IMG/VR virus record: IMGVR_UViG_3300032285_004054
Span: 154,401 to 218,400 of that record
Reading direction: 5' to 3' (one strand)
Length of the DNA: 64,000 nt
Source: a virus
Position numbers and translations under genes: made by a program. This document shows, one piece after another, positions 2,141-56,314 of the stretch. Under the pieces are notes generated by a model. That model was given only the letters and a program-made list of their open reading frames with translations, was not told the DNA's origin and did no database searches. Numbering within the stretch: position 1 is the stretch's first letter; every line of letters starts with the position of its first letter.

Positions 2141-3070
2141 CTACTGCCCCATTGCTTTATTTGTGTATTTGTTCACGTTGAACAAAGCTTCGGGTAGTAG
2201 ATCGGCTCTAGAAGCTCTTGCAGGATTAATATCCAGTGAACCTCTACGGGAGTAAAGAAGAGTAACACAGCAATCAGTTACTTCAGGATGCTTCATAATA
2301 GTTGTAAATAGTTTCTCAGCACAAAACTCATGAAATTCATTAACTTCACGGAGAGATACAATCTGCTTAAAAAGAGACTCCGGATCAACTGCCATGCCGT
2401 CTTTTGTCTTAATAAGAATATATGCTGCACCTGTATCCTTCTGTTTAGTATGACGGCAACGTGAACGAAGAGCATTAGTAAACCAGCGACTTGTTACGGG
2501 CTGATTGTCTTCTGGATGCAACTTATAAAACTTAAGATGATCTACCTGAGAGGAATAGTCAGTTATTTCAATAGAATCTGCTTTACCGTAGAGTTCCCAA
2601 TAAAGATCGAGATATTCATCTTCGAACGCATTATACGAATTTACATCTGAACCTGACGGAAAGAAGCAAACATGTACAGGTGTCTGTAGAGCAGCTTCAA
2701 GATCTTTCTTAACTTGCTCTTCGTAGTTAACGATAGCTTCCTTAATAGAACTACCCATCTTACACATATCAAAAGAATTGAGATAGAGTTTAGCAGACTT
2801 TGACTCTACCATAAACTTTGACTCAGCAGGGTATGTATACTTTAACGTACCTGCTACAGGGTAGCCGTTATCGAGGAGAAATGTTGCTTCGTGGCAATGC
2901 CATGTATCAAAACCGACAAATTCATTGCCGGTAATACCGTGATCAGCTCTCGCTAATTCTCTTGGCATTGGATTAAGCAATGATGGATCAAATTGCTCGG
3001 TATAAATTGCGTACGAAGCTGAAGATCCAAGTGTCTTCGACGCAATATCAGTTAGGTTTGTTGTACTCAT
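2141..3070 (-). CDS. queF: QueF, NADPH-dependent 7-cyano-7-deazaguanine reductase (preQ0 to preQ1)
   Basis: 309 aa, the long two-domain QueF type (E. coli QueF is 282 aa). The signature ESKSAKLYLNSF is at 89-100. The thioimide-forming Cys205 and general acid Asp212 keep the exact seven-residue spacing of E. coli C190/D197, and NEFHEFC at 244-250 carries the substrate-binding His/Glu. All catalytic residues are therefore present and reduction of preQ0 to preQ1 is expected. It ends an overlapping operon (ATGA overlap at 3067-3070) with a P-loop kinase, DpdN-like and DpdA-like genes, which points to preQ1-based modification of phage DNA rather than tRNA. Confidence 0.93.
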   Translation of the reverse strand: MSTTNLTDIASKTLGSSASYAIYTEQFDPSLLNPMPRELARADHGITGNEFVGFDTWHCHEATFLLDNGYPVAGTLKYTYPAESKFMVESKSAKLYLNSFDMCKMGSSIKEAIVNYEEQVKKDLEAALQTPVHVCFFPSGSDVNSYNAFEDEYLDLYWELYGKADSIEITDYSSQVDHLKFYKLHPEDNQPVTSRWFTNALRSRCRHTKQKDTGAAYILIKTKDGMAVDPESLFKQIVSLREVNEFHEFCAEKLFTTIMKHPEVTDCCVTLLYSRRGSLDINPARASRADLLPEALFNVNKYTNKAMGQ

Positions 3071-23213: not shown

Positions 23214-23732
23214 ATGTCTCAATACACATCTACTAAATTAATCGAGCTAGGCTCTTGTGCTTTTCGTCAATGGCGTGCTACCCACAGTCATTGCCAATAT
23301 ATTCACGGATATCGCTTAATGGCTAAGTTTTGGTTTGGTTGTGATTCTCTTGATGAGAAGAACTGGGCAGTTGACTTTGGAGGTCTTAAGGAGCTTAAGA
23401 AGATTCTTAACAATCAGTTTGACCACACCCTTTGTGTTGCTCAGGATGACCCTCTCCTAGAGGAGTTTAAGAAGCTAGATGATATTGGAGGTGTTCAACT
23501 CCGTATTATGGAATCAGTCGGTGTTGAAAAAACAGCCGAATGGTGCTTTAAAACAGCTAATGAGTTTGTAAAAAACCTAACACAGAATCGTTGCTGGGTA
23601 GAGAGTGTTGAAGTGTTCGAACACGAACAGAATTCTGCTATCTATTCTAAAGAAGATTTAACACTTAAAATAACACCTTCAGTAACTTCAACATCAAATA
23701 CATTTTATGCCTCAGACCGACCAGGAGTCTAA
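23214..23732 (+). CDS. QueD/6-pyruvoyl-tetrahydropterin synthase-family protein lacking two zinc ligands
   Basis: 172 aa. Aligning with E. coli QueD, Cys27 (catalytic), His31 and Asp70-His71 (FDHT) are kept, and VDFGGLKELKKIL matches VDFAELK. The zinc ligands His16 and His33 are replaced by Phe and Tyr (SCAFRQW and IHGYRL). Two extra His (THSH, 24 and 26) might substitute. Its neighbour is queE, so a role in 7-deazaguanine synthesis is plausible, but a second, canonical QueD exists at 54563-55129. It overlaps the next gene by 26 nt. Confidence 0.8.
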   Translation: MSQYTSTKLIELGSCAFRQWRATHSHCQYIHGYRLMAKFWFGCDSLDEKNWAVDFGGLKELKKILNNQFDHTLCVAQDDPLLEEFKKLDDIGGVQLRIMESVGVEKTAEWCFKTANEFVKNLTQNRCWVESVEVFEHEQNSAIYSKEDLTLKITPSVTSTSNTFYASDRPGV

Positions 23733-37778: not shown

Positions 37779-38174
37779 TTATATACCTTTTGCAGCAGCG
37801 TGGTAACGAGCTCTCTTAGCAACGTCACAAATAGCACTAGAAGCTACAGCAATCTTTTGTAACATCCAGGGCTCAATACTCTCACCAGAAGAGAGAATAT
37901 CATGAAGCTCTTTAGCGTTTGTAAAGAGATCAAAAAGGTTTGTCTTGGCCATTTCTAATTCCTCGCTTTCATGCTCTTCCGGAGACTCTTCACATTCACA
38001 ACCTTCTTCTTCAGGTTCTTCACCTAAATCCATAACAATTACACCAGCATCCTTGCCTTCATCATCCGTTACTTCAACAGGTGTTGTATCATGCTCAATA
38101 TCTGTAGGTTCATTATGATCTTTTTGTCTTGAGGAAATATAAGCCTCAGCAATTAAGCGAAATTCCTTGTCCAT
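37779..38174 (-). CDS. Acidic protein with capsid-targeting-like N-terminus
   Basis: 131 aa. EFRLIAE followed by AYIS contains I-A-E before A, the same cleavage residues as T4 internal proteins (FIAE before A). Residues 20-70 are strongly acidic with CECEES. C-terminal 60 residues helical. First of five adjacent genes with this signal type. Inferred virion-packaged. Confidence 0.72.
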   Translation of the reverse strand: MDKEFRLIAEAYISSRQKDHNEPTDIEHDTTPVEVTDDEGKDAGVIVMDLGEEPEEEGCECEESPEEHESEELEMAKTNLFDLFTNAKELHDILSSGESIEPWMLQKIAVASSAICDVAKRARYHAAAKGI

Positions 38175-38175
38175 A

Positions 38176-38541
38176 TTAAGCTACGCTTCCGTCCTCTGGA
38201 CAATTTCCTGTCTCGTGATCTCCGCCACAAGTCGTACAGACCTTAGCGGTTACTTTATCATCTTCGCCGGCTGTACCAGCAACTTCTTCTTTTTCTTTCT
38301 TTGTAAGAAGAGCGTCAAGATCAGCGATGGTCTTACCGTGGTCGTTAACAATCTTAACAATATCTTCTTTTTCGTCCTTAAGCTTTAGATAGTCCTTAGA
38401 ACCGTGCTCAGCTTTAAGTAAGGAACGAACTACTTTGTAGTAACGTCTTGCAAGCTTTTTGTTAACAACTTTATCAGTAGCTGTACCTTCGAGGATGCGC
38501 TGATAAGCTTCCGCTAATAATACTTCATCTTTATTGATCAT
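38176..38541 (-). CDS. Protein with capsid-targeting-like N-terminus and zinc-knuckle-like end
   Basis: 121 aa. DEVLLAE followed by AYQ is the signal (L-A-E before A), with a second L-E before G at RILEG. The middle is a Lys-rich coiled coil. The end CTTCGGDHETGNC resembles a CCHC knuckle. Late promoter six bases upstream. Confidence 0.72.
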   Translation of the reverse strand: MINKDEVLLAEAYQRILEGTATDKVVNKKLARRYYKVVRSLLKAEHGSKDYLKLKDEKEDIVKIVNDHGKTIADLDALLTKKEKEEVAGTAGEDDKVTAKVCTTCGGDHETGNCPEDGSVA

Positions 38542-38547
38542 ATATTA

Positions 38548-38555
38548 TATTTAAT
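38548..38555 (-). promoter_or_regulatory. Late promoter octamer
   Basis: ATTAAATA followed by TAATAT and the ATG at 38541. It overlaps the end of the upstream gene. Confidence 0.55.
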
Positions 38556-38772
38556 CTTTCCTATGGGACTTCTTCCACCATTTGCACCAGGCACTAGGCT
38601 TAATGTCCCCGCTAACAGCAGAACATTTATTTGGTGATCTCCACATTGTACATTGATCACATCGCTGTCCCTTAACAGTGTGAGCTACATAACCCGCTTC
38701 TGCTTTAGAGTGTTTTGCTTTAGCTTCACTTAACATCTCTAAAGCTAATTTTATAACTTTATCGAAGCTCAT
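38551..38772 (-). CDS. HiPIP-like small Cys protein with capsid-targeting-like N-terminus
   Basis: 73 aa. SFDKVIKLALEMLSE followed by AKA is the signal (L-S-E before A). The rest, RCDQCTMWRSPNKCSAVSG then AWCKWW, is the CxxC...C...WCxxW pattern of small high-potential-iron-like proteins found in many phages. Metal or cluster binding expected. Overlaps the upstream gene by 4 nt. Confidence 0.75.
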   Translation of the reverse strand: MSFDKVIKLALEMLSEAKAKHSKAEAGYVAHTVKGQRCDQCTMWRSPNKCSAVSGDIKPSAWCKWWKKSHRKD

Positions 38773-39203
38773 CCGCCTTGCTGTGCTGCCTTCATATATG
38801 AATGAAGTTGTTCGATATCCTTAGGTATAGCTTTTTTAATAACTTCAGGAATTGGTTTACTTAATAACAATAATGATTGTGCGTAATCTTTAGCTGTATC
38901 TCTATCTTTTGAAATAGCTATAATTTCGTGTGTAGTAAGTTGAGCACCATTTATATATTTACGATACGCTCTTTCAGCGTCATAACGTGTATTATCTTCT
39001 TTTGGTGTGTGAGGTTTGGCAACTTCTTCTGTTTCACCTGGACCTCTAGGGTTAGGCTCTTCAGGGTTTCCAGCAGGTCTAGCTTTAGCAGGATGTGCTA
39101 AACCTAATGAAGCAGCCATGGCTGCAGTTGCCATAGCTTTTGAAAAAGGTCCTTCTTGAACCAATTCATATGCTTCTGTTATTTTTTGTATATCTTTACT
39201 CAT
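38769..39203 (-). CDS. Protein with capsid-targeting-like N-terminus
   Basis: 144 aa. DIQKITE followed by AYE gives I-T-E before A. A hydrophobic AMATAAMAASLGLAHPAKA stretch looks like a signal peptide or second processing region, then a Pro/Glu linker and a helical C-terminal domain. Function unknown. Confidence 0.68.
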   Translation of the reverse strand: MSKDIQKITEAYELVQEGPFSKAMATAAMAASLGLAHPAKARPAGNPEEPNPRGPGETEEVAKPHTPKEDNTRYDAERAYRKYINGAQLTTHEIIAISKDRDTAKDYAQSLLLLSKPIPEVIKKAIPKDIEQLHSYMKAAQQGG

Positions 39204-39204
39204 A

Positions 39205-39459
39205 TTAATCTTTATTTACTACGCTGTCAAAACCTGCACTCCAGAGATCAGCAGCTTTTTTATTACCGCCTTTATGAGGATTTTCAGGCATAACACCATC
39301 TCTGAGATATCTTCTTCCAGCTAAAGCGCCATGGGCAAAATGATCAGATGCATCTGAGGCTGCGTGATAATCAGTAGGAGTTCTTGACATAAGTTTTTCG
39401 TATTCTTGTCTACTAATAGTATCGTATGCTTCGTTTAAAGCGGTTTCGAATTTCGACAT
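39205..39459 (-). CDS. Protein with capsid-targeting-like N-terminus
   Basis: 84 aa. KFETALNE followed by AYD gives L-N-E before A. The rest (DASDHFAHGALAGRRYLRDG) is a small helical domain with conserved-looking Trp/Gly. Late promoter six bases upstream; head of the five-gene group 37779-39459. Confidence 0.72.
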   Translation of the reverse strand: MSKFETALNEAYDTISRQEYEKLMSRTPTDYHAASDASDHFAHGALAGRRYLRDGVMPENPHKGGNKKAADLWSAGFDSVVNKD

Positions 39460-39809: not shown

Positions 39810-40775
39810 TTACGTTATAGCATCAATTAATCCACCGAAATTTTCTTCGGTCTCCGGATCAATTATACCTTTTAGTAAATCAGATTCTATTGGATAAAGA
39901 TCATTATACTCGACTACATATTTTTCACTTTTATCTTTAGCAAAATCAGGCTCAACAAGAGCTTGTCGTACGCGATGTCTTGCCCAAGGACTCATTTCCA
40001 CAGCTGGTTTAATGTATGTAGCAAGTTCACCTTTCCATAAATTATCTCTATCACTTCTTAAACAAACTCTATCTCCCTCTTTAAGGTTGTTTCTCCATGT
40101 TTCTAAATCAAAATCCTTACTCTCTGTAACACTTAGTAAATCACTAAATGAATCTTTAGTATCTTTTGTTAATGACTTTCTTAATTCCCAATCAATAGGA
40201 AATAATTTACTTAGATTGTATCTAGTATAGCCTTGAGAGCCATCTATATTGTGACCTTCTTTAACAAGTAAAGCAATATCTCTAAAACTATCAACTACTT
40301 CTAAATATGTAGCTTTAAATCCACGGACAGTAAAAGGTCTAACTTCTACCTTATCGCCTTTCTTTAAGTTACTTCGCCAAGTTCTAAGATATTCGTAATC
40401 CTCTTGAGTCTCTTCTGATACTATATCGATTAAATCGCTAAATGAATTTTCTGTATCCTTAGATAGAGAGTTCTTTAATTCATATTTTTTTAAAGCTTTT
40501 TGTACTTTATCGGTTACAACCTTTCTAACTGTATAGTAACTATCAGGTACATGTAAGCTTCTATACCATTCATCAAAATCTTTCATATGAACAAACCAAC
40601 CATTACCTGATTTAGCATCTCTAGTCCATATAGCAGGTTTTCCGTCTATAATAATATCCCAACAAGGATTCCACATCTGACCTCCCATTAAGGTTTCAAA
40701 AGGACCCTTAACAATCTCTACTTTAAGATCATTAGCTCTTCTTAATTCCTCTAATATAAGATCATTAAATCTCAC
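39810..40775 (-). CDS. Triple-module member of the SFGGLLDVL paralogue array
   Basis: 321 aa with a GTG start. RFNDLILE followed by EL is the N-terminal signal (I-L-E). Three copies of the array's C-terminal motif occur in one chain: LSKDTENSFSDLIDIV near 105, LTKDTKDSFSDLLSV near 215, and IDPETEENFGGLIDAI at the end. The first module has the 'GP' core (EIVKGPFETLMGG). The second and third share NLKKGDKVEVR and NLKEGDRVCLR cores. It looks like three cassettes fused. Late promoter seven bases upstream. Confidence 0.8.
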   Translation of the reverse strand: MRFNDLILEELRRANDLKVEIVKGPFETLMGGQMWNPCWDIIIDGKPAIWTRDAKSGNGWFVHMKDFDEWYRSLHVPDSYYTVRKVVTDKVQKALKKYELKNSLSKDTENSFSDLIDIVSEETQEDYEYLRTWRSNLKKGDKVEVRPFTVRGFKATYLEVVDSFRDIALLVKEGHNIDGSQGYTRYNLSKLFPIDWELRKSLTKDTKDSFSDLLSVTESKDFDLETWRNNLKEGDRVCLRSDRDNLWKGELATYIKPAVEMSPWARHRVRQALVEPDFAKDKSEKYVVEYNDLYPIESDLLKGIIDPETEENFGGLIDAIT

Positions 40776-40782
40776 GGTTTAT

Positions 40783-40790
40783 TATTTATC
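40783..40790 (-). promoter_or_regulatory. Late promoter octamer
   Basis: GATAAATA followed by seven bases and the GTG start at 40775. Confidence 0.5.
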
Positions 40791-40914
40791 AATATCTGCT
40801 CTAGCGCGGCGAGGTTTCTCCTAATTTCCCCGCTTAGTGCATCCGTCTCGGCCCCAAAGTTTTTGAAAATATTTTATACTCTAAATTGAATTCCGATTAT
40901 TAATTCTAGGGAAA

Positions 40915-41199
40915 TTAAAGAATATCTAATAGATCTCCGAACGTCTCGCCTGTCTCCTTGGACAGATGCCGCTTTATATTATGATCTTCTATAGCTTTGG
41001 CAATAGCGTTCTTTACTCCTTGCTTCTTATAGAGTTCAAGTCCCCAAACAGTGAGGTATTGGTTAGTCTCCAAATATCTAAAACCATCTGGCTCCTCGCC
41101 TATTGTTAACTTCTGGCCATCTACCTCCACGTCATAGCCTATATAGCCTTCGTCCTTAAGGTCGTAAGGACCTCTTAAGAATTTTACTTTATAAGACAT
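40915..41199 (-). CDS. Paralogue array member ('GP' core, no targeting signal)
   Basis: 94 aa. Starts MSYKVKFLRGPYDLKDEG, that is, the core begins at once without the L-x-E segment. Ends LSKETGETFGDLLDIL. Start overlaps the upstream stop by 11 nt (ATGTCTTATAA). Function unknown. Confidence 0.75.
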   Translation of the reverse strand: MSYKVKFLRGPYDLKDEGYIGYDVEVDGQKLTIGEEPDGFRYLETNQYLTVWGLELYKKQGVKNAIAKAIEDHNIKRHLSKETGETFGDLLDIL

Positions 41200-41542
41200 C
41201 TAAGAACCCTCCGAATGAATCTCTTGTTTCTGGAGACATAGCTTGAAGTGTCTCCCAATTCTTAATAGCTTTAGCTACCGGACCGTTTTCAGTATCTTTT
41301 CCATCCCAAAGGTAAATCTCTGGCATATAAAGAACATAAGGGTATTCACCACGTTCTGGAGTATAAATGACAAAACTATTTCGATCTTCCGTATCCTCTT
41401 TAATATGCATTAACCAGGCACCTTCTATATCTTCGGGAAGTGTATAGCCTCGCTTTAGATACTCATTGATCTCTTCATCGGTAGCCCTTCTTAGGACTTT
41501 ATAGAAGTTACCAGACTCTAGAAAGAACTTGTTAAAGGACAT
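41189..41542 (-). CDS. Paralogue array member ('YKVLRR' core)
   Basis: 117 aa. SFNKFFLE followed by SG is the signal. Core YKVLRRATDEEINEYLKRG then IEGAWLMHI, shared with three other members. C-terminal helix AKAIKNWETLQ and motif MSPETRDSFGGFLDVL. Eleven-nt overlaps with both neighbours. Confidence 0.8.
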   Translation of the reverse strand: MSFNKFFLESGNFYKVLRRATDEEINEYLKRGYTLPEDIEGAWLMHIKEDTEDRNSFVIYTPERGEYPYVLYMPEIYLWDGKDTENGPVAKAIKNWETLQAMSPETRDSFGGFLDVL

Positions 41543-41906
41543 CTAATAAACCTCCAAATGAATCTTTAGTTTCTTTGTCTACACTATTTAAAAGATTATA
41601 ATCTTCTATAGCCTTGTCTATTTGTTCTCTAAACGGATCATCATAGACGTCGGTATGATTGGGGATAATCTTAGGATAGGGAGGTAGCCAATGCCCTCTA
41701 TAATGACCTGGTGGCCAGCAGTAATAGCATATGCACTCCTTGTCCTTATACTTCATTTGTAGCTTATAGACATTCTCTTCCCAATCTTTTATATCCAGCT
41801 CATTACGAAAGAGATGGGTCATTGGTCCCTCAAGTATCTTTACTTCAATTCCTCTATTATCACCGTAATTGATAAGAGCTTCTTTTATTAATCGATCAAA
41901 GTACAT
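41532..41906 (-). CDS. Paralogue array member ('GP' core)
   Basis: 124 aa. YFDRLIKE followed by AL is the signal (I-K-E before A). Core VKILEGPMTHLFRNELD and a Cys/Trp-rich ECICYYCWPPGHYRGHW. Ends VDKETKDSFGGLLDVL. Eleven-nt overlaps on both sides. Confidence 0.8.
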   Translation of the reverse strand: MYFDRLIKEALINYGDNRGIEVKILEGPMTHLFRNELDIKDWEENVYKLQMKYKDKECICYYCWPPGHYRGHWLPPYPKIIPNHTDVYDDPFREQIDKAIEDYNLLNSVDKETKDSFGGLLDVL

Positions 41907-42312
41907 CTAATAATCCTCCAAATGAATCTCTTGTATCTTTACTTAATCCTTGCTTAAAATTCCATTGATCTATAAGAGCTGGAACTGTTTCACGTAACAT
42001 CTTATTAAGGAATTGAGCTCTCGGGGCTGACTTGTGTTGTCTACCGACCATACGTTTAAACCAAGTAGGTGTTTGAATAACAGTATAATAAGCTGTTGTC
42101 TTCTGAAGCTCTCTATCTTTATCCTCTATCTTCTTAACCCACCAAGTACCTCCTTTACTATCCTTTAAACAAAAGACCTCTTTATAGTCTTTATGTGGAG
42201 GTTGTTCAAGATGAAGCTCACCAGTAAGACTATCCATAAAGCCGGTACCTACAACCTTAAATGTTGTATTCATCCAGTCCAGTTCTTCTAATACTAATTG
42301 ATTAAAGTACAT
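41896..42312 (-). CDS. Paralogue array member ('GP-like' core)
   Basis: 138 aa. YFNQLVLE followed by EL is the signal. Core FKVVGTGFMDSLTGELH and GGTWWVKKI. Ends LSKDTRDSFGGLLDVL. Eleven-nt overlaps on both sides (ATGTACTTTGA downstream). Confidence 0.8.
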   Translation of the reverse strand: MYFNQLVLEELDWMNTTFKVVGTGFMDSLTGELHLEQPPHKDYKEVFCLKDSKGGTWWVKKIEDKDRELQKTTAYYTVIQTPTWFKRMVGRQHKSAPRAQFLNKMLRETVPALIDQWNFKQGLSKDTRDSFGGLLDVL

Positions 42313-42664
42313 CTAATAATCCTCCGAATGTTTTCTTTGTATCATTACTTAATAGCTTTCTAAACTCCCAATCATTAATAGCATCAGGAACTAACCCGGA
42401 GAACCCCATAAAGGTTACATCTCCGCTATCATGAATGTTGTAGCTAGTATATCCTTCCTTCTCGTTATCTTTAAACCGTACAACAAGACGCGGCCAATAC
42501 CCAGGTCTATTACCATCATCGTCTACCACCCAGGCACCTTTTATATACTCTTCCCTTACCCAGCGATAGCCATAACCGTATATCCTCTGAAGATCTTCTT
42601 CTGTAGCGTCCCGAACGACGTGATACTTCTCTAAAGCTTCTAATACTATTTGATTAAAGTACAT
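42302..42664 (-). CDS. Paralogue array member ('YKVLRR'-type core)
   Basis: 120 aa. YFNQIVLE followed by AL is the signal. Core YHVVRDATEEDLQRIYGYG then IKGAWVV. Ends LSNDTKKTFGGLLDVL. Eleven-nt overlaps on both sides. Confidence 0.8.
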   Translation of the reverse strand: MYFNQIVLEALEKYHVVRDATEEDLQRIYGYGYRWVREEYIKGAWVVDDDGNRPGYWPRLVVRFKDNEKEGYTSYNIHDSGDVTFMGFSGLVPDAINDWEFRKLLSNDTKKTFGGLLDVL

Positions 42665-42995
42665 CTAATAATCCTCCGAAAGTTTCTCTTGTATCCTTTG
42701 ATAAGGATTGTTTTAATTCCCAATCTTTCATAGCTTTAATAATAAGGCTATCAAGTGTATCAATATCAATACCGAATAGCTTTTTACATTGATCTCGTTC
42801 ATATACAGCATTATCCGGATCAATTCCTGAAGTATTTAAACCATCGAGATAAAGCATACATTGATCATCTTTGACATAACGAAAGAAACACTTCTTACCA
42901 TTTACAGTTATATTATAATGAAGGTCTCCGATAGCCCAATCTGGAAGATCTTTGTCTTCTATAACATTAATAATCTTAATAGAAGGTTGTTTCAT
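42654..42995 (-). CDS. Paralogue array member (no targeting signal)
   Basis: 113 aa. Starts MKQPSIKIINVIEDKDLPDW, directly in the core, and ends LSKDTRETFGGLLDVL. Starts 8 bp after the upstream stop, the only seam in the run that is not an 11-nt overlap. The downstream seam is ATGTACTTTAA. Confidence 0.75.
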   Translation of the reverse strand: MKQPSIKIINVIEDKDLPDWAIGDLHYNITVNGKKCFFRYVKDDQCMLYLDGLNTSGIDPDNAVYERDQCKKLFGIDIDTLDSLIIKAMKDWELKQSLSKDTRETFGGLLDVL

Positions 42996-43003
42996 ATAGG
43001 CTA

Positions 43004-43540
43004 TTAGAGGGCGTCTAGGAAGTCCTTAAATGATCCTTGAGTCTTAGTATCGGTTTGTCCTAGAGCTAAGAAGTTCTTTTCTTTATGTTTTATCCACCAG
43101 TTTACTAGCTTATCTAGCTTCTCGGCAAATGCGTAATGATAACCTTTCTGCCTCCATACTGGATCCTCTGTATTATTATCATAATGAACGAAGTAACTTA
43201 TATATGGATATAAAACATTCGGTACCCAAGAGGCAGCTGCAGCAATATGGGTAGGTCCTGTTTCATCTTCAAGTCTTCTAGTATCATCAATACAAGTCAT
43301 ATAATATGTCTTTGTATCTGTCCATGTAGCAAGCTCCCTAGTCTTATGTAATATACCATTAGGTTCAGCCTCCTTCGGTAGTCCTTCTTTAATGTCATAT
43401 ATCTCAAAGTTATGAAAGGGCATTGAATCAACCTCATCCGTTGACCAGACCGATCGTTCAAAGCCTTGCTTTCTATCGGGGTTTCTTGATCGAGGTACAT
43501 TAGCTACTAGAGCCTCTTTGAAGTAATCTTTAAATGACAT
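43004..43540 (-). CDS. Paralogue array member with a longer, distinct core
   Basis: 178 aa, the longest single-module member. SFKDYFKE followed by AL is the signal. The core (WSTDEVDSMPFHNFEIYDIK, then THIAAAASWVPNVLYPYISY) is unlike the others. The ending TKTQGSFKDFLDAL is a diverged form of the shared motif. Eleven-nt overlap with the upstream gene. Confidence 0.75.
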   Translation of the reverse strand: MSFKDYFKEALVANVPRSRNPDRKQGFERSVWSTDEVDSMPFHNFEIYDIKEGLPKEAEPNGILHKTRELATWTDTKTYYMTCIDDTRRLEDETGPTHIAAAASWVPNVLYPYISYFVHYDNNTEDPVWRQKGYHYAFAEKLDKLVNWWIKHKEKNFLALGQTDTKTQGSFKDFLDAL

Positions 43541-43877
43541 CGATTAAACCTCCAAATGATTGTTCAGTATCCTTTGATAGATTGTTTTTTAATTCCCAAG
43601 ATATAAGCTGTTTGTATATAGGAAAGTCCGGATAGATATACCCTTCAAAGCCATAATTAGGTAAGCTATACACCATTAAGTTTTCATTGTTAAGATCTTC
43701 AAATAAGTCCTTACAACGTATGACTAGAACATCAGATACATCGGTATAGTTTCTAATTACCCATCCTCTAGTTAATTTTAAATCCTCATCATATTGAGAA
43801 GATAAACCATCGAGTATTTTCTGAGGAGCTAATTCTATCTTCTCCTTCTTTGATTCGTAGAATAACTTAAATGACAT
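43530..43877 (-). CDS. Paralogue array member
   Basis: 115 aa. SFKLFYE followed by SKKE is the signal (F-Y-E before S), almost identical in DNA to that of the upstream gene. Core KILDGLSSQYDEDLKLTRGW. Ends LSKDTEQSFGGLIDVI. Eleven-nt overlaps on both sides. Confidence 0.78.
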   Translation of the reverse strand: MSFKLFYESKKEKIELAPQKILDGLSSQYDEDLKLTRGWVIRNYTDVSDVLVIRCKDLFEDLNNENLMVYSLPNYGFEGYIYPDFPIYKQLISWELKNNLSKDTEQSFGGLIDVI

Positions 43878-44265
43878 CTAGTAGCCCTCCGAAAGTATCT
43901 CTTGTCTTATCTGGTAGATGCCTCCTTTGTTCAAAGTCATCTATAGCCTTAACTACTCTCCTACCTTCTTCTCTATAGGCTGGTATATCCCGCTCGGTAA
44001 AGGCACCACATCTATCCATACCTTCTAAAGTATAAACATCATAACCTTTTACATACGTAATAGATCTTATAGCAATATATCTAGCAATATATCTATCAGT
44101 TCCTGATTCCTTCTTTATAGTAAGAAGATAGAGAGGGTCATCTTTTCTCCAAGGATACTTCCTACGAAAGACCCCCTCATACCCCTCAGGCACTGCTTCT
44201 ACAGTTATATTATCTCTTTGAAGCTTATAAGGCTCTTTAGATTCGTAGAATAACTTAAATGACAT
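43867..44265 (-). CDS. Paralogue array member
   Basis: 132 aa. SFKLFYE followed by SKEP is the signal. Core VEAVPEGYEGVFRRKYPW and a Tyr/Ile-rich middle. Ends LPDKTRDTFGGLLDVI. Eleven-nt overlaps on both sides (ATGTCATTTAA). Confidence 0.78.
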   Translation of the reverse strand: MSFKLFYESKEPYKLQRDNITVEAVPEGYEGVFRRKYPWRKDDPLYLLTIKKESGTDRYIARYIAIRSITYVKGYDVYTLEGMDRCGAFTERDIPAYREEGRRVVKAIDDFEQRRHLPDKTRDTFGGLLDVI

Positions 44266-44608
44266 CTAATAGACCTCCAAATGAATCTTTAGTATCGTCT
44301 GATAGATTATTTTTAAACTCCCATTTCTTAATAGCTTTAGCAAGAGGTGAGTTTATATCCTCATGACTAATAAGGTCAATAGTGTTAGGGTCTAATGTGT
44401 AAATTGAATATGTCTTCCAGTCAGGAATATATGCTACAATAACCTGTCCTTCATCATAGTCATCGTTCATATAAACGATCCATGCCTGTTCAATATCTCC
44501 CTTCTCCGTATCAAGATCTCTTGTAAGATCTTTAAGTTCTTTCTTTGTAAATCTTCTAAGAACTTTGTATGAGTCGTTTGACTCTGTAAAAAATTGTTTA
44601 AATGACAT
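44255..44608 (-). CDS. First gene of the paralogue array ('YKVLRR' core)
   Basis: 117 aa. SFKQFFTE followed by SND is the signal. Core YKVLRRFTKKELKDLTRD then IEQAWIVYM, close to 41189-41542. Ends LSDDTKDSFGGLLDVI. Unlike most genes here it has a Shine-Dalgarno sequence, AAGGAGA, nine bases before the ATG, inside a small CTATC/GATAG hairpin. CTTAAATA lies about 21 bases before the start. Confidence 0.8.
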   Translation of the reverse strand: MSFKQFFTESNDSYKVLRRFTKKELKDLTRDLDTEKGDIEQAWIVYMNDDYDEGQVIVAYIPDWKTYSIYTLDPNTIDLISHEDINSPLAKAIKKWEFKNNLSDDTKDSFGGLLDVI

Positions 44609-44628: not shown

Positions 44629-44823
44629 TTATTTAAGAGTCTTTATTTCATTCCCTATCTCTACTATATACTCACCTATCTTAGACATGCCGAGCTCCTT
44701 GGTTAGGCTCTGCTTCTCCCTTAGTATTCTAACGATAGTCTCTAGCTTACCTAGATAGTCTTCTAATGTAAGCCCGGATAGATCTTCCTTTAGATAGCCT
44801 GATACAATTTCATTAAACTTCAT
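44629..44823 (-). CDS. Small protein with capsid-targeting-like N-terminus, upstream of the array
   Basis: 64 aa. KFNEIVSGYLKE followed by DLSG is the signal (L-K-E). The rest is a charged coiled coil (LEDYLGKLETIVRILREK). No SFGGLLDVL ending. Late promoter seven bases upstream; probably the leading gene of the array transcript. Confidence 0.7.
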   Translation of the reverse strand: MKFNEIVSGYLKEDLSGLTLEDYLGKLETIVRILREKQSLTKELGMSKIGEYIVEIGNEIKTLK

Positions 44824-44830
44824 AGTCTAT

Positions 44831-44838
44831 TATTTAGT
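44831..44838 (-). promoter_or_regulatory. Late promoter octamer
   Basis: ACTAAATA followed by seven bases and the ATG at 44823. Confidence 0.55.
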
Positions 44839-52982: not shown

Positions 52983-53288
52983 TTAAATGATACCCAAGAG
53001 ACCTTCAAATGAGTCTTTTGTTTCCGGTGATAGATTCTTCATTATATTATATCTCTCTATCGCCTTTAATCCTTCTTCTTCTATATCTTTGAATATATTA
53101 ACCGATGTTGCCAGCCCCAGTAATGGCTTATATTTTGTTGGTACCTTTAAGAACGCTAGATATGATCTCTTTTTACCTTTTTCTAAAACAAATTGCCAGG
53201 TATTACCTTCATTATCTTTCATCTCATACCCTGGTTCCCTTCTCTTTCCTACTATCTTATACTCTACATCTGTAAATGTTAATGACAT
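52983..53288 (-). CDS. Dispersed member of the paralogue family (no targeting signal)
   Basis: 101 aa. Starts MSLTFTDVEYKIVGKRREPG, directly in the core; ends NLSPETKDSFEGLLGII, the family motif. Lies 3 bp after the 43-aa signal-bearing gene. Confidence 0.72.
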   Translation of the reverse strand: MSLTFTDVEYKIVGKRREPGYEMKDNEGNTWQFVLEKGKKRSYLAFLKVPTKYKPLLGLATSVNIFKDIEEEGLKAIERYNIMKNLSPETKDSFEGLLGII

Positions 53289-53291
53289 AAC

Positions 53292-53423
53292 CTATTCCTT
53301 TACGCAATTATTAACTACCCTCCCGGATGGTAGCTTCTTTGTTCCTTTCTTCTTATATCCCTTCCAACAATGCATTTGCTTCTTTTCGGTTAATATAGCT
53401 TTTACAATTTTATCAAAATTCAT
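53292..53423 (-). CDS. 43-aa protein: capsid-targeting-like signal plus CWKGYKKKGTKK peptide
   Basis: NFDKIVKAILTE followed by KKQ is one of the best copies of the signal (L-T-E). The mature part would be 30 residues, CWKGYKKKGTKKLPSGRVVN then NCVKE, a basic peptide whose CWxGYxxxGxKxxxGxxVxNCV pattern I recall in many T4-like phages. Exact TATAAATA sits six bases before the ATG. Inferred packaged peptide. Confidence 0.72.
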   Translation of the reverse strand: MNFDKIVKAILTEKKQMHCWKGYKKKGTKKLPSGRVVNNCVKE

Positions 53424-53429
53424 ATACTC

Positions 53430-53437
53430 TATTTATA
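53430..53437 (-). promoter_or_regulatory. Late promoter octamer, perfect consensus
   Basis: TATAAATA, identical to the T4 late consensus, then GAGTAT and the ATG at 53423. Confidence 0.75.
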
Positions 53438-53786
53438 CAACATCAATAAAGCTACCGAACGTTTCTTTTGTATCATCGGACATATGCTTTTCTAATTCAA
53501 ATCTATTATATTCCTTTTTTACTAGATCTCTAATATACTTTTCTAGTTCCTTACGATCTGGAGATAATGTATCTTTTGATATCCCAGGGATCTTACTACT
53601 CAATGAATAGCCTATATCCTTATCAAATCCATCATTTGTCCCATAGATACCCATCTTCTCACCATTTATATAAACATCGGCTAGTACCGTCCATATCTTA
53701 GAACTAGTACTGGGACGAATCTTTACAGCAATATCCAATCCTGCAAAGCCTTCATTGAGTATACTCTCTACTAGATCCTGGAACAT
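53433..53786 (-). CDS. Dispersed member of the paralogue family with targeting-like signal
   Basis: 117 aa. FQDLVESILNE followed by GFAG is the signal (L-N-E before G). Core IAVKIRPSTSSKIWTVLADV. Ends MSDDTKETFGSFIDVV. Carries the late promoter of the 43-aa gene in its 3' end. Confidence 0.75.
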   Translation of the reverse strand: MFQDLVESILNEGFAGLDIAVKIRPSTSSKIWTVLADVYINGEKMGIYGTNDGFDKDIGYSLSSKIPGISKDTLSPDRKELEKYIRDLVKKEYNRFELEKHMSDDTKETFGSFIDVV

Positions 53787-53797
53787 ATATTATACTT

Positions 53798-53805
53798 ATT
53801 AAATA
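53798..53805 (+). promoter_or_regulatory. Late promoter octamer
   Basis: ATTAAATA followed by ATACAC and the ATG at 53812. Confidence 0.58.
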
Positions 53806-53811
53806 ATACAC

Positions 53812-54222
53812 ATGTCATTTAGTCAATTAGTTCTGGAAACCCTAGATGAATACCGAGTCATCGGGGATGCCTCCCATCATGCTATCAATATGGCTATGCG
53901 GTACTTTACCGCCGGGATCAAGGATACTGATAAGATCTTCACCCAACCTATTGAACATGGATGGCTTTTGAATGTACGAGGGGATAAGATTTATGTATTC
54001 CCTAATTACTTTATAGGTATGATGGATCCAGGTGATTCAGATTACGTCGTCTTTAATGATCAATATAACTTCATTAACCGTTCAACCAATCGTGTTAATA
54101 ATCCAAAGGGAGTTATTGATAATAGAAAGATAAAGAAAGCGATTGAGAATTGGGAGATGCTTAAGTCAGTATCCCCAGATACTAAATCCTCATTCGAAGA
54201 CTTATTAGGTACTATATCCTAA
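53812..54222 (+). CDS. Dispersed paralogue family member on the plus strand ('YKVLRR'-type core)
   Basis: 136 aa. SFSQLVLE followed by TL is the signal. Core YRVIGDASHHAINMAMRYF then IEHGWLLNV parallels the YKVLRR...GAW members of the tandem array. Helix KKAIENWEMLK and motif VSPDTKSSFEDLLGTI end it. Late promoter six bases upstream. Its opposite strand shows that the family has moved, not just duplicated in tandem. Confidence 0.78.
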   Translation: MSFSQLVLETLDEYRVIGDASHHAINMAMRYFTAGIKDTDKIFTQPIEHGWLLNVRGDKIYVFPNYFIGMMDPGDSDYVVFNDQYNFINRSTNRVNNPKGVIDNRKIKKAIENWEMLKSVSPDTKSSFEDLLGTIS

Positions 54223-54566
54223 CCGATCAGCTTCTCCAGTAGCATTCTACTGTTAACCTTAATATCACACTCCAAGGCGTCTCTAGATTCAATAGCCTTA
54301 AAGTACTCTTCGTCATTATCAATCAGTTCCTGACCTAACGTCTTCTTAACATCTGGATTGAGCTTTGATTTGATCAGTTCCAGGATTGGCTCCACATCTT
54401 TATCTGATAGATGGAGGGTAACTTCGGAGCCATCATATACGGAACCATAATTGAATTCCAGCTTTAGAGTAACCGGAGGACATGGACTATAACCAAATGG
54501 TTGACCAGTAAAGTCGGAGAAGTAACTTGCCTCCTCTATCTGTTCAGGAACGATTATCTTTTTCAT
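54219..54566 (-). CDS. Hypothetical protein
   Basis: 115 aa. SYFSDFTGQPFGYSPCPPVT, then a beta-rich middle (VTLHLSDKDVEPILELIKSK) and helical end. Overlaps queD start by 4 nt, so co-translated with it. Possibly connected with the pterin step, no direct evidence. Confidence 0.65.
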   Translation of the reverse strand: MKKIIVPEQIEEASYFSDFTGQPFGYSPCPPVTLKLEFNYGSVYDGSEVTLHLSDKDVEPILELIKSKLNPDVKKTLGQELIDNDEEYFKAIESRDALECDIKVNSRMLLEKLIG

Positions 54567-55129
54567 AGTTTTCGATCATCATATTCAACAACACCCTTTT
54601 CGTCTCTATAAAGCTCAATTAGGTATTTGTTTCCAATATAGAAGTTAGAACGTTCATCTTGAGAAATAGAATCTCTATTACAATCGGTATAACAATTAGG
54701 CGTCTCATATAGACGAACATTCTCAATCCAAAGATTAGGATACTTGTTAAAGAGAATATCCATAGCCAGGAATACTTCTTTAGCAATATTCTCTACCGAT
54801 GGATTGCAGTAATTACCTGGACCATTCAATGTCATAATCCAGAGCTTGGTACCTAAATCATTAACAGCCTTGATGAGTGTCCTATCATGACAATTGAGAA
54901 TAGCTCCATGATCGAGCTTATCATCAATCCATTGACATCCTACTCTCTTAATCTCCTTGAAGTCTACAGCATATCCGATCTCTTCAATTGTATCAAAGCC
55001 AAAGGTTAGTTCATAAAGATATGTATGCCCATGAACATGAAAGCATTTCATCCGCTCATTCATTACCCGATGCATTACATCGAACGATCCCTTTCTAGTA
55101 ATAGTCTGTTTAGTACTCATACTCTTCAT
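54563..55129 (-). CDS. queD: QueD, 6-carboxy-tetrahydropterin synthase (canonical)
   Basis: 188 aa. FDVMHRVMNERMKCFHVHGH carries the first zinc His, the catalytic Cys and the His-Gly-His pair. VDFKEIKR, KLDHGAILN (Asp-His of the catalytic triad) and NPSVENIAKEVF, then VRLYETPNC with the terminal Glu. All metal and catalytic residues are present, in contrast to the paralogue at 23214. Converts dihydroneopterin triphosphate to carboxy-tetrahydropterin, the step before QueE. Confidence 0.92.
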   Translation of the reverse strand: MKSMSTKQTITRKGSFDVMHRVMNERMKCFHVHGHTYLYELTFGFDTIEEIGYAVDFKEIKRVGCQWIDDKLDHGAILNCHDRTLIKAVNDLGTKLWIMTLNGPGNYCNPSVENIAKEVFLAMDILFNKYPNLWIENVRLYETPNCYTDCNRDSISQDERSNFYIGNKYLIELYRDEKGVVEYDDRKL

Positions 55130-55336
55130 CTATTATAGATTCAACCCTTTTGAAATCAATAATAATAGGTATTTGCAGGGAGATCCTACTATTCCTTCAA
55201 ATAAACCCTGAATTCCCCATTATTCAACACTTATTTCGACGTTGAATATCAACGACTTACGACAGCAAAAGCACGTATATTATTTATTGAAAAATCCTTT
55301 GTTTTTTACAGATTTCCCCTAAAAATCACTACTTTT

Positions 55337-55612
55337 TCACAGAATTCCCACAAAATCCTGGAAATTCTCCTGTGTTTTCTCTGATAATTCCTTAATAATA
55401 CTATAGTTTTTCGGGAACATTTTACAGATTTCCGCTACTTGATCCCTGTCTGTTGAACCATCCTGGTAACGAACATCTATCTTACACATTAAACTACTAG
55501 GGAATATAGTTTGCATTTCCGTTACTTGTACGGTCATAATTCTTCCGTCATAGTAATAATCAAACCAGTCCCCAGGCTTGAGATTACTAACAAATGATAG
55601 GTTATCGAACAT
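55337..55612 (-). CDS. Dispersed member of the paralogue family
   Basis: 91 aa. FDNLSFVSNLKPGDWFDYYY lacks a clear L-x-E site; NLKPGDWFDYY resembles the NLKKGDKVEVR cores of the triple-module protein. Ends LSEKTQENFQDFVGIL. The 207 bp upstream (55130-55336 on the other side) hold no gene I can see. Confidence 0.7.
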   Translation of the reverse strand: MFDNLSFVSNLKPGDWFDYYYDGRIMTVQVTEMQTIFPSSLMCKIDVRYQDGSTDRDQVAEICKMFPKNYSIIKELSEKTQENFQDFVGIL

Positions 55613-55653
55613 GAATATATACTAGAGGAATTTGATTTATAGTTCAACTATAA

Positions 55654-55661
55654 AATAAATA
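55654..55661 (+). promoter_or_regulatory. Late promoter octamer
   Basis: AATAAATA followed by TAACCG and the ATG at 55668. Confidence 0.6.
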
Positions 55662-55667
55662 TAACCG

Positions 55668-55991
55668 ATGAACTTCGAGGATCTTGTTGTAGAGGCTATA
55701 CATAACAAATATGTTAAGTTTGATATAGAGATTCTTAGTGGTCCTTACCCTGGTGAACATTACGGGTGGTTGGAAGAGTGTCAAGTATACAAAGCAAGAA
55801 TTTTTGATAATACAAACGTTCAATTAATCTATCAACCGAGTAGGGATTATGTTGGTGCGAAGAATTTTGACGTCTGGTGGTTTGGTCGGGAGGCTGGATT
55901 TGACGAACAGGCCAAAGCAGCTATAATAAAATACAATATGTCAAAGGAAGCTAAGGGATCATTTGGTGACTTCTTAGACGCCATATCATGA
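55668..55991 (+). CDS. Dispersed paralogue family member ('GP' core)
   Basis: 107 aa. NFEDLVVE followed by AIH is the signal. Core IEILSGPYPGEHYGWLEECQ, parallel to the 'GP' members. Ends KEAKGSFGDFLDAI. Late promoter upstream; ATGA overlap with the next member. Confidence 0.75.
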   Translation: MNFEDLVVEAIHNKYVKFDIEILSGPYPGEHYGWLEECQVYKARIFDNTNVQLIYQPSRDYVGAKNFDVWWFGREAGFDEQAKAAIIKYNMSKEAKGSFGDFLDAIS

Positions 55992-56314
55992 GCTTAAACG
56001 TAGAAATAATTCCCAGAAGAACGTACGATACAAGTTACGGATTCAAGCGTTACAGTTGTAAGATATCCGGATCTGTAGACGGAATTGATATCAATAATGC
56101 ACTACCTTGGCAGAAAGGTGTCTTCCAAGTAGAAATATGGCATAATGGCTCCTGTCGACTACCTGCTTTAGATCAAGTTCCAGAGATTCCCTACCCTAAA
56201 ACCTATCACAAGTTTTGTGCTGAAGTTAAGAAAGCTATTGAAGACCAGGAGCTAATATCCTCACTATCGCCGGAAACAGGCGATGCTTTCAAAGACCTTA
56301 TTAGTATAACTTAG
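55988..56314 (+). CDS. Dispersed paralogue family member (no targeting signal)
   Basis: 108 aa. Starts MSLNVEIIPRRTYDTSYGF in the core; ends LSSLSPETGDAFKDLISIT. Translationally coupled to the upstream, signal-bearing member. Confidence 0.72.
   Translation: MSLNVEIIPRRTYDTSYGFKRYSCKISGSVDGIDINNALPWQKGVFQVEIWHNGSCRLPALDQVPEIPYPKTYHKFCAEVKKAIEDQELISSLSPETGDAFKDLISIT

Follow-up and report, generated by a model that had tools for sequence, protein, structure and literature searches.

Constant ends and variable cores: a tandem gene array in a T4-like phage as a candidate set of internal-head proteins

Why would a phage keep, one behind another, eleven small genes whose products begin alike and end alike, while their middle parts can hardly be recognised as related? 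The question is raised by positions 39810-44608 of a 64-kb window, namely the last part (154401-218400) of the 218.4-kb virus record IMGVR_UViG_3300032285_004054, labelled G000; positions below are those of the window unless prefixed by a record. G000 is a freshwater phage and, judged by its sequence, a T4-like myovirus, with a DNA polymerase ~34% identical to those of T4-like phages and up to 89% identical to those of relatives in IMG/VR contigs. The answer we favour, with moderate confidence, is that the array is a late-expressed operon of internal-head (virion cargo) proteins, built from cassettes and functionally like the internal proteins (IPs) of T4, with a C-terminal element added. What leads to it is a combination of starts spaced as in the T4 capsid-targeting sequence (CTS), a gp21 protease, TAAATA elements, neighbours starting with LxE|A, the same C-terminal tag on unrelated domains, signs of cargo exchange, and a second array in a relative, G019.

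All 11 open reading frames (ORFs) lie on the minus strand, and they hold 13 copies of the C-terminal motif because ORF 39810-40775 consists of three modules with three motifs, which bears out the tandem array of 12 to 13 modules that an earlier note had described from the letters of the window. The common C-terminus it described holds in all eleven genes, which end in L-S-x-[DE]-T-x-x-[ST]-F-G-G-[LF]-[LI]-D-V-[LI] or a degenerate version of it (full-length array tags score 54-66 bits in a tag profile), with an AI..WE helix upstream in most members. Its common N-terminus holds in nine, which open with M-[SYR]-F and whose residue 8 or 9 is glutamate, and fails in 42654-42995 (MKQPSIK) and 40915-41199 (MSYKVKF).

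The start motif is where the likeness to T4 is closest. T4 IPII and IPIII start with MKTYQEFIAE|A (from the T4 record), and in IPIII targeting depends mainly on residues 4 and 7 and processing on residues 8 and 10, with L/I-x-E as the site behind which gp21 cuts (PMC9026906). In the array the starts MSFNKFFLE|S, MYFNQIVLE|A and MSFKDYFKE|A, among others, have the T4 spacing from the glutamate; the P3 residue is often F, V or I here. A strict pattern with this spacing is found in 10 of the 24 tagged proteins, as against 0 among 292 without a tag (shuffled expectation 0.07; Fisher 8e-13, a value that overstates the evidence, since the pattern was set after inspection and the array genes are paralogous). 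Within the array seven genes fit it strictly, two are one residue shorter and two are without it. A looser pattern near N-termini, [LIVFM]xE[ASG], is only about twofold above background and is not evidence when taken alone. The CTS-like motif also stands at the operon heads 39810-40775, 53812, 55668 and G000:37945, where no tag lies upstream, so it is not imposed there by the overlap with a preceding gene's tag. The protease that would cut it is encoded together with a gp22-like scaffold and the major capsid protein at G000:106935-110297 (gp21-type prohead protease, PF03420 match at G000:109779-110228, E 6e-30), and the predicted cut of the major capsid protein, WCFE|S, is similar in form to the array start motif. 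A family opening with MNKDxxLLAEAYxxIL, its members otherwise different proteins, is found at window 37779-39459 (-), at L159:5687-6439 and in the records L195 and L196; it is probably a second class of prohead-protease-type N-terminus, reused within each phage.

How much of this constancy belongs to protein, and how much to DNA? In ten pairs of genes an 11-nt overlap joins the stop of one to the start of the next, the D-V-L/I-stop codons doubling as the M-S/Y-F codons of the downstream gene, and in three more tagged genes the stop abuts the next gene or overlaps it by a few bases. GGAGG lies within the F-G-G codons at 12 of these 13 junctions and in none of the 13 other tags, two of which are internal to ORF 39810-40775 (Fisher p 3e-6); since it tracks downstream starts in this way, it is the Shine-Dalgarno sequence of the next gene. 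Part of the constancy of the ends is shared DNA, not protein alone. One could go further and regard the ends as mainly a translational-coupling and recombination junction by which cassettes are joined, the protein ends having no sorting role, and both the distribution of GGAGG and the single 11-nt overlap encoding a C-end plus an N-start would suit such a view. We hold it to be quite improbable, because the tag (LSx[DE]TxxSF..L[LI][DG]) is kept at partnerless gene ends and inside ORF 39810-40775, the N-terminal motif is retained in operon-first genes, and the AI..WE part precedes every ribosome-binding site. As the rest of the motif persists where a next gene is absent, the tag is a protein-level signal and serves at the same time for coupling. 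With ribosome-binding sites buried in the tags, a cassette array might also gain or lose members while its expression stays intact.

The timing of expression can be approached through TAAATA, which is found at a distance of 10-19 nt before 73 starts, the number per 10-nt bin being ~2 elsewhere. In the form (T)ATAAATA the element is very sharp genome-wide, 10-21 nt before starts, and can be used to classify late genes; it precedes gp21, gp22 and many tail genes, and we identify it, by its letters and place, with the T4 late-promoter element. As a sequence element it precedes six of the nine tagged operon heads (the leader gene 44629-44823, ORF 39810-40775, G000:9132, 53812, 55668 and G000:37945), which makes late expression of the array from T4-type late promoters the predicted mode.

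The tag reaches beyond the array that the earlier note described and recurs in two more clusters and two fusions elsewhere in the genome. The profile finds 24 copies in G000 and one weaker copy, at ~14-66 bits overall; in a null set of 1264 ORF C-termini from relatives and shuffled own C-termini, the best score was 8.5 bits, itself from the homologous G019 array. Besides the three clusters (the array, G000:7368-9572 and window 52983-56314), copies end a 322-aa nucleotidase and a 662-aa repeat protein (G000:37945-39933, -), the latter with a start of its own, MSFKEYIEE|A. Its leucine-rich-repeat-like repeats ('LKSLEGLP') resemble those of Lak megaphages and Vibrio phages, and a piece of it is present in L007:18445-19830. 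Would such a spread not equally suit late accessory proteins that stay in the cell (lysis control, superinfection exclusion, host takeover), unpackaged, with a tag that binds one cellular or phage partner? The tag on the nucleotidase and the repeat protein agrees with this, as do the several tagged proteins having no CTS-like start; the T4-like CTS spacing specific to tagged proteins and the surrounding LxE|A-start proteins nonetheless make it unlikely in our opinion.

If the tagged proteins are instead head cargo, it is tempting to speculate, tentatively, that the tag might be a second, previously undescribed virion-sorting signal, that is, a helical docking peptide which any protein (nucleotidase, repeat protein, small inhibitor) could acquire for loading into the head. 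The T4 IP scheme would then become an expandable two-signal cargo system of >20 members, its tag diverging from phage to phage together with the receptor. In encapsulins a short C-terminal cargo-loading peptide is carried by unrelated proteins and the shell has the HK97 fold. Likened by this general description, the phage tag could similarly load unrelated proteins into an HK97-fold shell, although it is longer and a predicted helix pair. No known precedent for the tag was found; as to a possible derivation from the scaffold gp22, a segment of T4 gp22, NISPEAKETFG, scores a weak 2-3 bits against the profile, and the phage's own gp22 gives no meaningful match.

Has any relative a comparable array? 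An all-against-all C-terminus search within 14 records finds large families of small genes sharing their ends in G000 (22 genes) and G019 (5 genes). The G019 array (L159:1036-3364) has 11-nt overlaps too, adjoins the same LLAEAYQ gene as the array of the window, and stands in identical order relative to other shared genes; it is homologous and syntenic with the latter, its tag having diverged to resemble L-x-x-[DE]-T-K-x-x-[WF]-x-x-[IV]-V-[DN]-E-L, and this divergence is why the first tag profile missed it. The profile search that had been proposed yielded copies throughout G000 and no match in 23 related contigs or in L195 and L196, an absence that is soft since many contigs are fragments. 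In L195 and L196, records of two further relatives that span this neighbourhood, an array is missing, but several proteins start with MNKDxxLLAEAY. Searching 50,697 phage genomes with the array (blastn and tblastn) gave nothing, and tag scans of IMG/VR returned only the phage's own second record, 3300037189_026208, plus matches judged to be chance (one in L015, within a structural protein, and others in L016, L017 and L203). A scan for G019-type junctions found G019 alone, and when close relatives were scanned, a G019 array protein and ORF 39810-40775 each matched only itself.

Between these ends the cores tell a different story. With both constant ends stripped, the clear homologues are 41189 and 44255, at 35% identity, and the second and third modules of ORF 39810-40775, with a few weak pairs besides. 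That 41189 and 44255 share 39% identity over their whole length, and that the two modules are related, is what one would expect if a single enzyme or structural protein had recently been duplicated in tandem, in the ordinary way, and its copies had since drifted. However, most core pairs have no significant similarity once the ends are removed, tags occur also on unrelated domains, and no core comes near the ends in conservation, so we consider this very unlikely; in its simple form, recent duplication is rejected by the core-only comparison, and the cores do not align in the way that the earlier note had named as telling against a packaged arsenal. By eye and by weak scores the cores fall into the subtypes YKVLRR, GP and NLKxGD with several singletons, so the claim that just two subtypes can be traced is right as to the great divergence of most cores, and gives way before a probable third, 'NLKxGDxV', in modules 2 and 3 of 39810-40775 and in 55337-55612. 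That no core matches a known family stands after searches of Pfam, PHROGs, NCBIfam and PADLOC, without credible matches (hits above E 0.001 taken as chance), and of PDB and BFVD with Foldseek, without a significant match. Structure prediction, also proposed earlier, succeeded in part: the AlphaFold2 model of 41189 (five sequences; pLDDT 73, pTM 0.68) shows a beta-alpha-beta4 core with one helix at the N-terminus and two at the C-terminus, with low confidence in the N-terminal ten and last six residues, and Foldseek assigned it no fold (best E 0.97 in PDB, 0.28 in BFVD), whereas the model of the 321-aa fusion (pLDDT 47) was set aside.

The nucleotidase shows how cargo may change. The tagged 322-aa protein (G000:49178-50146) has an NT5C 5'-nucleotidase domain (PF06941) closely similar to that of the orthologous L196:7463-8194. 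Behind the domain both proteins have a CTS-like segment (MQESFKMFFEKS / MKESFNSIVGSILVENS), and beyond it their C-terminal parts are unrelated, that of L196 resembling a stand-alone G002/G003 protein starting with MSFKQYFEEKKS, and that of G000 ending in the tag. Since the same domain carries different parts past the CTS-like segment, material behind a start-like motif appears to be exchanged as modules between relatives.

Each protein has the anatomy of a cassette, in which an N-terminal signal of capsid-targeting/prohead-protease type (M-x-F-x-x-[FLY]-[FIV]-x-E|[AS]) comes before a variable core and the helix-pair tag AI..WE....LSxDTxxSFGGLLDVL closes the C-terminus. If the cargo interpretation is correct, late promoters would drive cargo synthesis during head assembly, and overlapping stop and start codons, with a ribosome-binding site inside the upstream tag, would couple translation from gene to gene. 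The N-terminal signal would bring the protein into the prohead core and be cut by the gp21 homologue, whilst the tag, retained on the mature protein, would dock it to a partner in the head or core that all of them share. Finally the cores would be ejected alongside the DNA, to act on the host and plausibly to counter its defences. By analogy this last role is reasonable, because the T4 proteins Ip1-3 are injected and inhibit distinct GmrSD nucleases, and as the leader is the only part they have in common, failed core homology to them is not disqualifying (PMC12373910).

The analogy with the T4 IPI locus drawn by the earlier note accordingly holds for some parts and not for others. T4 IPI, IPII and IPIII are likewise small, diverse proteins from clustered accessory loci, with a common N-terminal motif (an aromatic residue, a hydrophobic pair and E|A, equally spaced), and CTS spacing, late promoters, gp21 and LxE|A neighbours all agree. 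The constant C-terminus, which is partly a coupling element, is without a T4 IP counterpart; here there are >20 genes, mostly overlapping, and no core is similar in sequence to IPI (hhalign of A4 against IPI gave nothing). The ejection-protein sets of phiKZ and SPN3US are alike in comprising many diverse head proteins cut after E by a gp21-type protease, but theirs are long propeptides with A/S-x-E sites, and a tandem array with a shared C-terminal tag is not described (PMC5694885).

Several observations weigh against the cargo interpretation. A clear CTS-like start is lacking in two of the eleven genes of the array and in roughly half of the tagged proteins as a whole; the CTS-like segment of the nucleotidase is internal, not N-terminal; TAAATA is absent before three tagged operon heads (52983, 53433 and 55337); no core has an identifiable anti-defence relative; and many cores are acidic, T4 IPs being described as basic (PMC9026906). 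Should the interpretation nevertheless be true, with some 20 packaged proteins as compared with the three of T4, for which a block of a type IV restriction enzyme, different in each case, has been shown, the shared ends would be a search key for large unknown sets of counter-defence or takeover proteins, and the tag a new route for loading cargo into phage heads.

Table 1. Features of the array, its operon and the third tag cluster (window positions)
Feature	Position	Strand
Tagged fusion ORF of 321 aa with GTG start (MRFNDLILEE); each of its three modules ends in the tag, modules 2/3 related (NLKxGDxV)	39810-40775	-
Late-promoter element GATAAATA ahead of ORF 39810-40775	40783-40790	-
Tagged (no GGAGG in tag), GP-type core; CTS-like start and overlapping downstream gene both absent	40915-41199	-
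Tagged, YKVLRR-type core; AlphaFold2 model	41189-41542	-
Tagged, GP-type core; CTS-like start MYFDRLIKE|A	41532-41906	-
Tagged; CTS-like start MYFNQLVLE|E	41896-42312	-
Tagged, YKVLRR-related core; CTS-like start MYFNQIVLE|A	42302-42664	-
Tagged; no CTS-like start	42654-42995	-
Degenerate tag GSFKDFLDAL; CTS-like start MSFKDYFKE|A	43004-43540	-
Tagged; start MSFKLFYE|S, one residue short of T4 spacing	43530-43877	-
Tagged; start MSFKLFYE|S	43867-44265	-
First tagged gene of array, YKVLRR-type core; start MSFKQFFTE|S	44255-44608	-
Example of embedded Shine-Dalgarno GGAGG in F-G-G codons; next start at 44265	44274-44278	-
Operon leader gene, untagged (MKFNEIVSGYLKED)	44629-44823	-
Late-promoter element TAAATA ahead of leader gene	44831-44836	-
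Untagged neighbours, starts ..L/IxE|A(Y): LNEAY, ITEAY, LSEAK, LLAEAY, LIAEAY	37779-39459	-
Tagged, third cluster	52983-53288	-
Tagged, third cluster	53433-53786	-
Tagged, YKVLRR-related; CTS-like start MSFSQLVLE|T; late-promoter element upstream	53812-54222	+
Weakly tagged (ELSEKTQENFQDFVGIL), NLKxGD-like core	55337-55612	-
Tagged; CTS-like start MNFEDLVVE|A; late-promoter element upstream	55668-55991	+
Tagged, last of its operon	55988-56314	+

Apart from the array, the genome encodes QueF, two QueD/PTPS-like paralogues and QueC (window 2141-3070, -, 23214-23732, +, and 54563-55129, -; G000:30265-30909, +). This partial 7-deazaguanine pathway hints that the phage DNA might bear 7-deazaguanines as a possible modification, a hint only, since domain searches detected neither a FolE nor a TGT domain. 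The second record mentioned above (3300037189_026208, L014, 74 kb) is 100% identical to the window across 9378 bases and is apparently the same phage. Among the untagged neighbours of the array, a small cysteine-rich protein (38551-38772, -), also present at L196:1458-1676, has an LSE|A-type start and a sub-threshold match to HiPIP (high-potential iron-sulfur) proteins.

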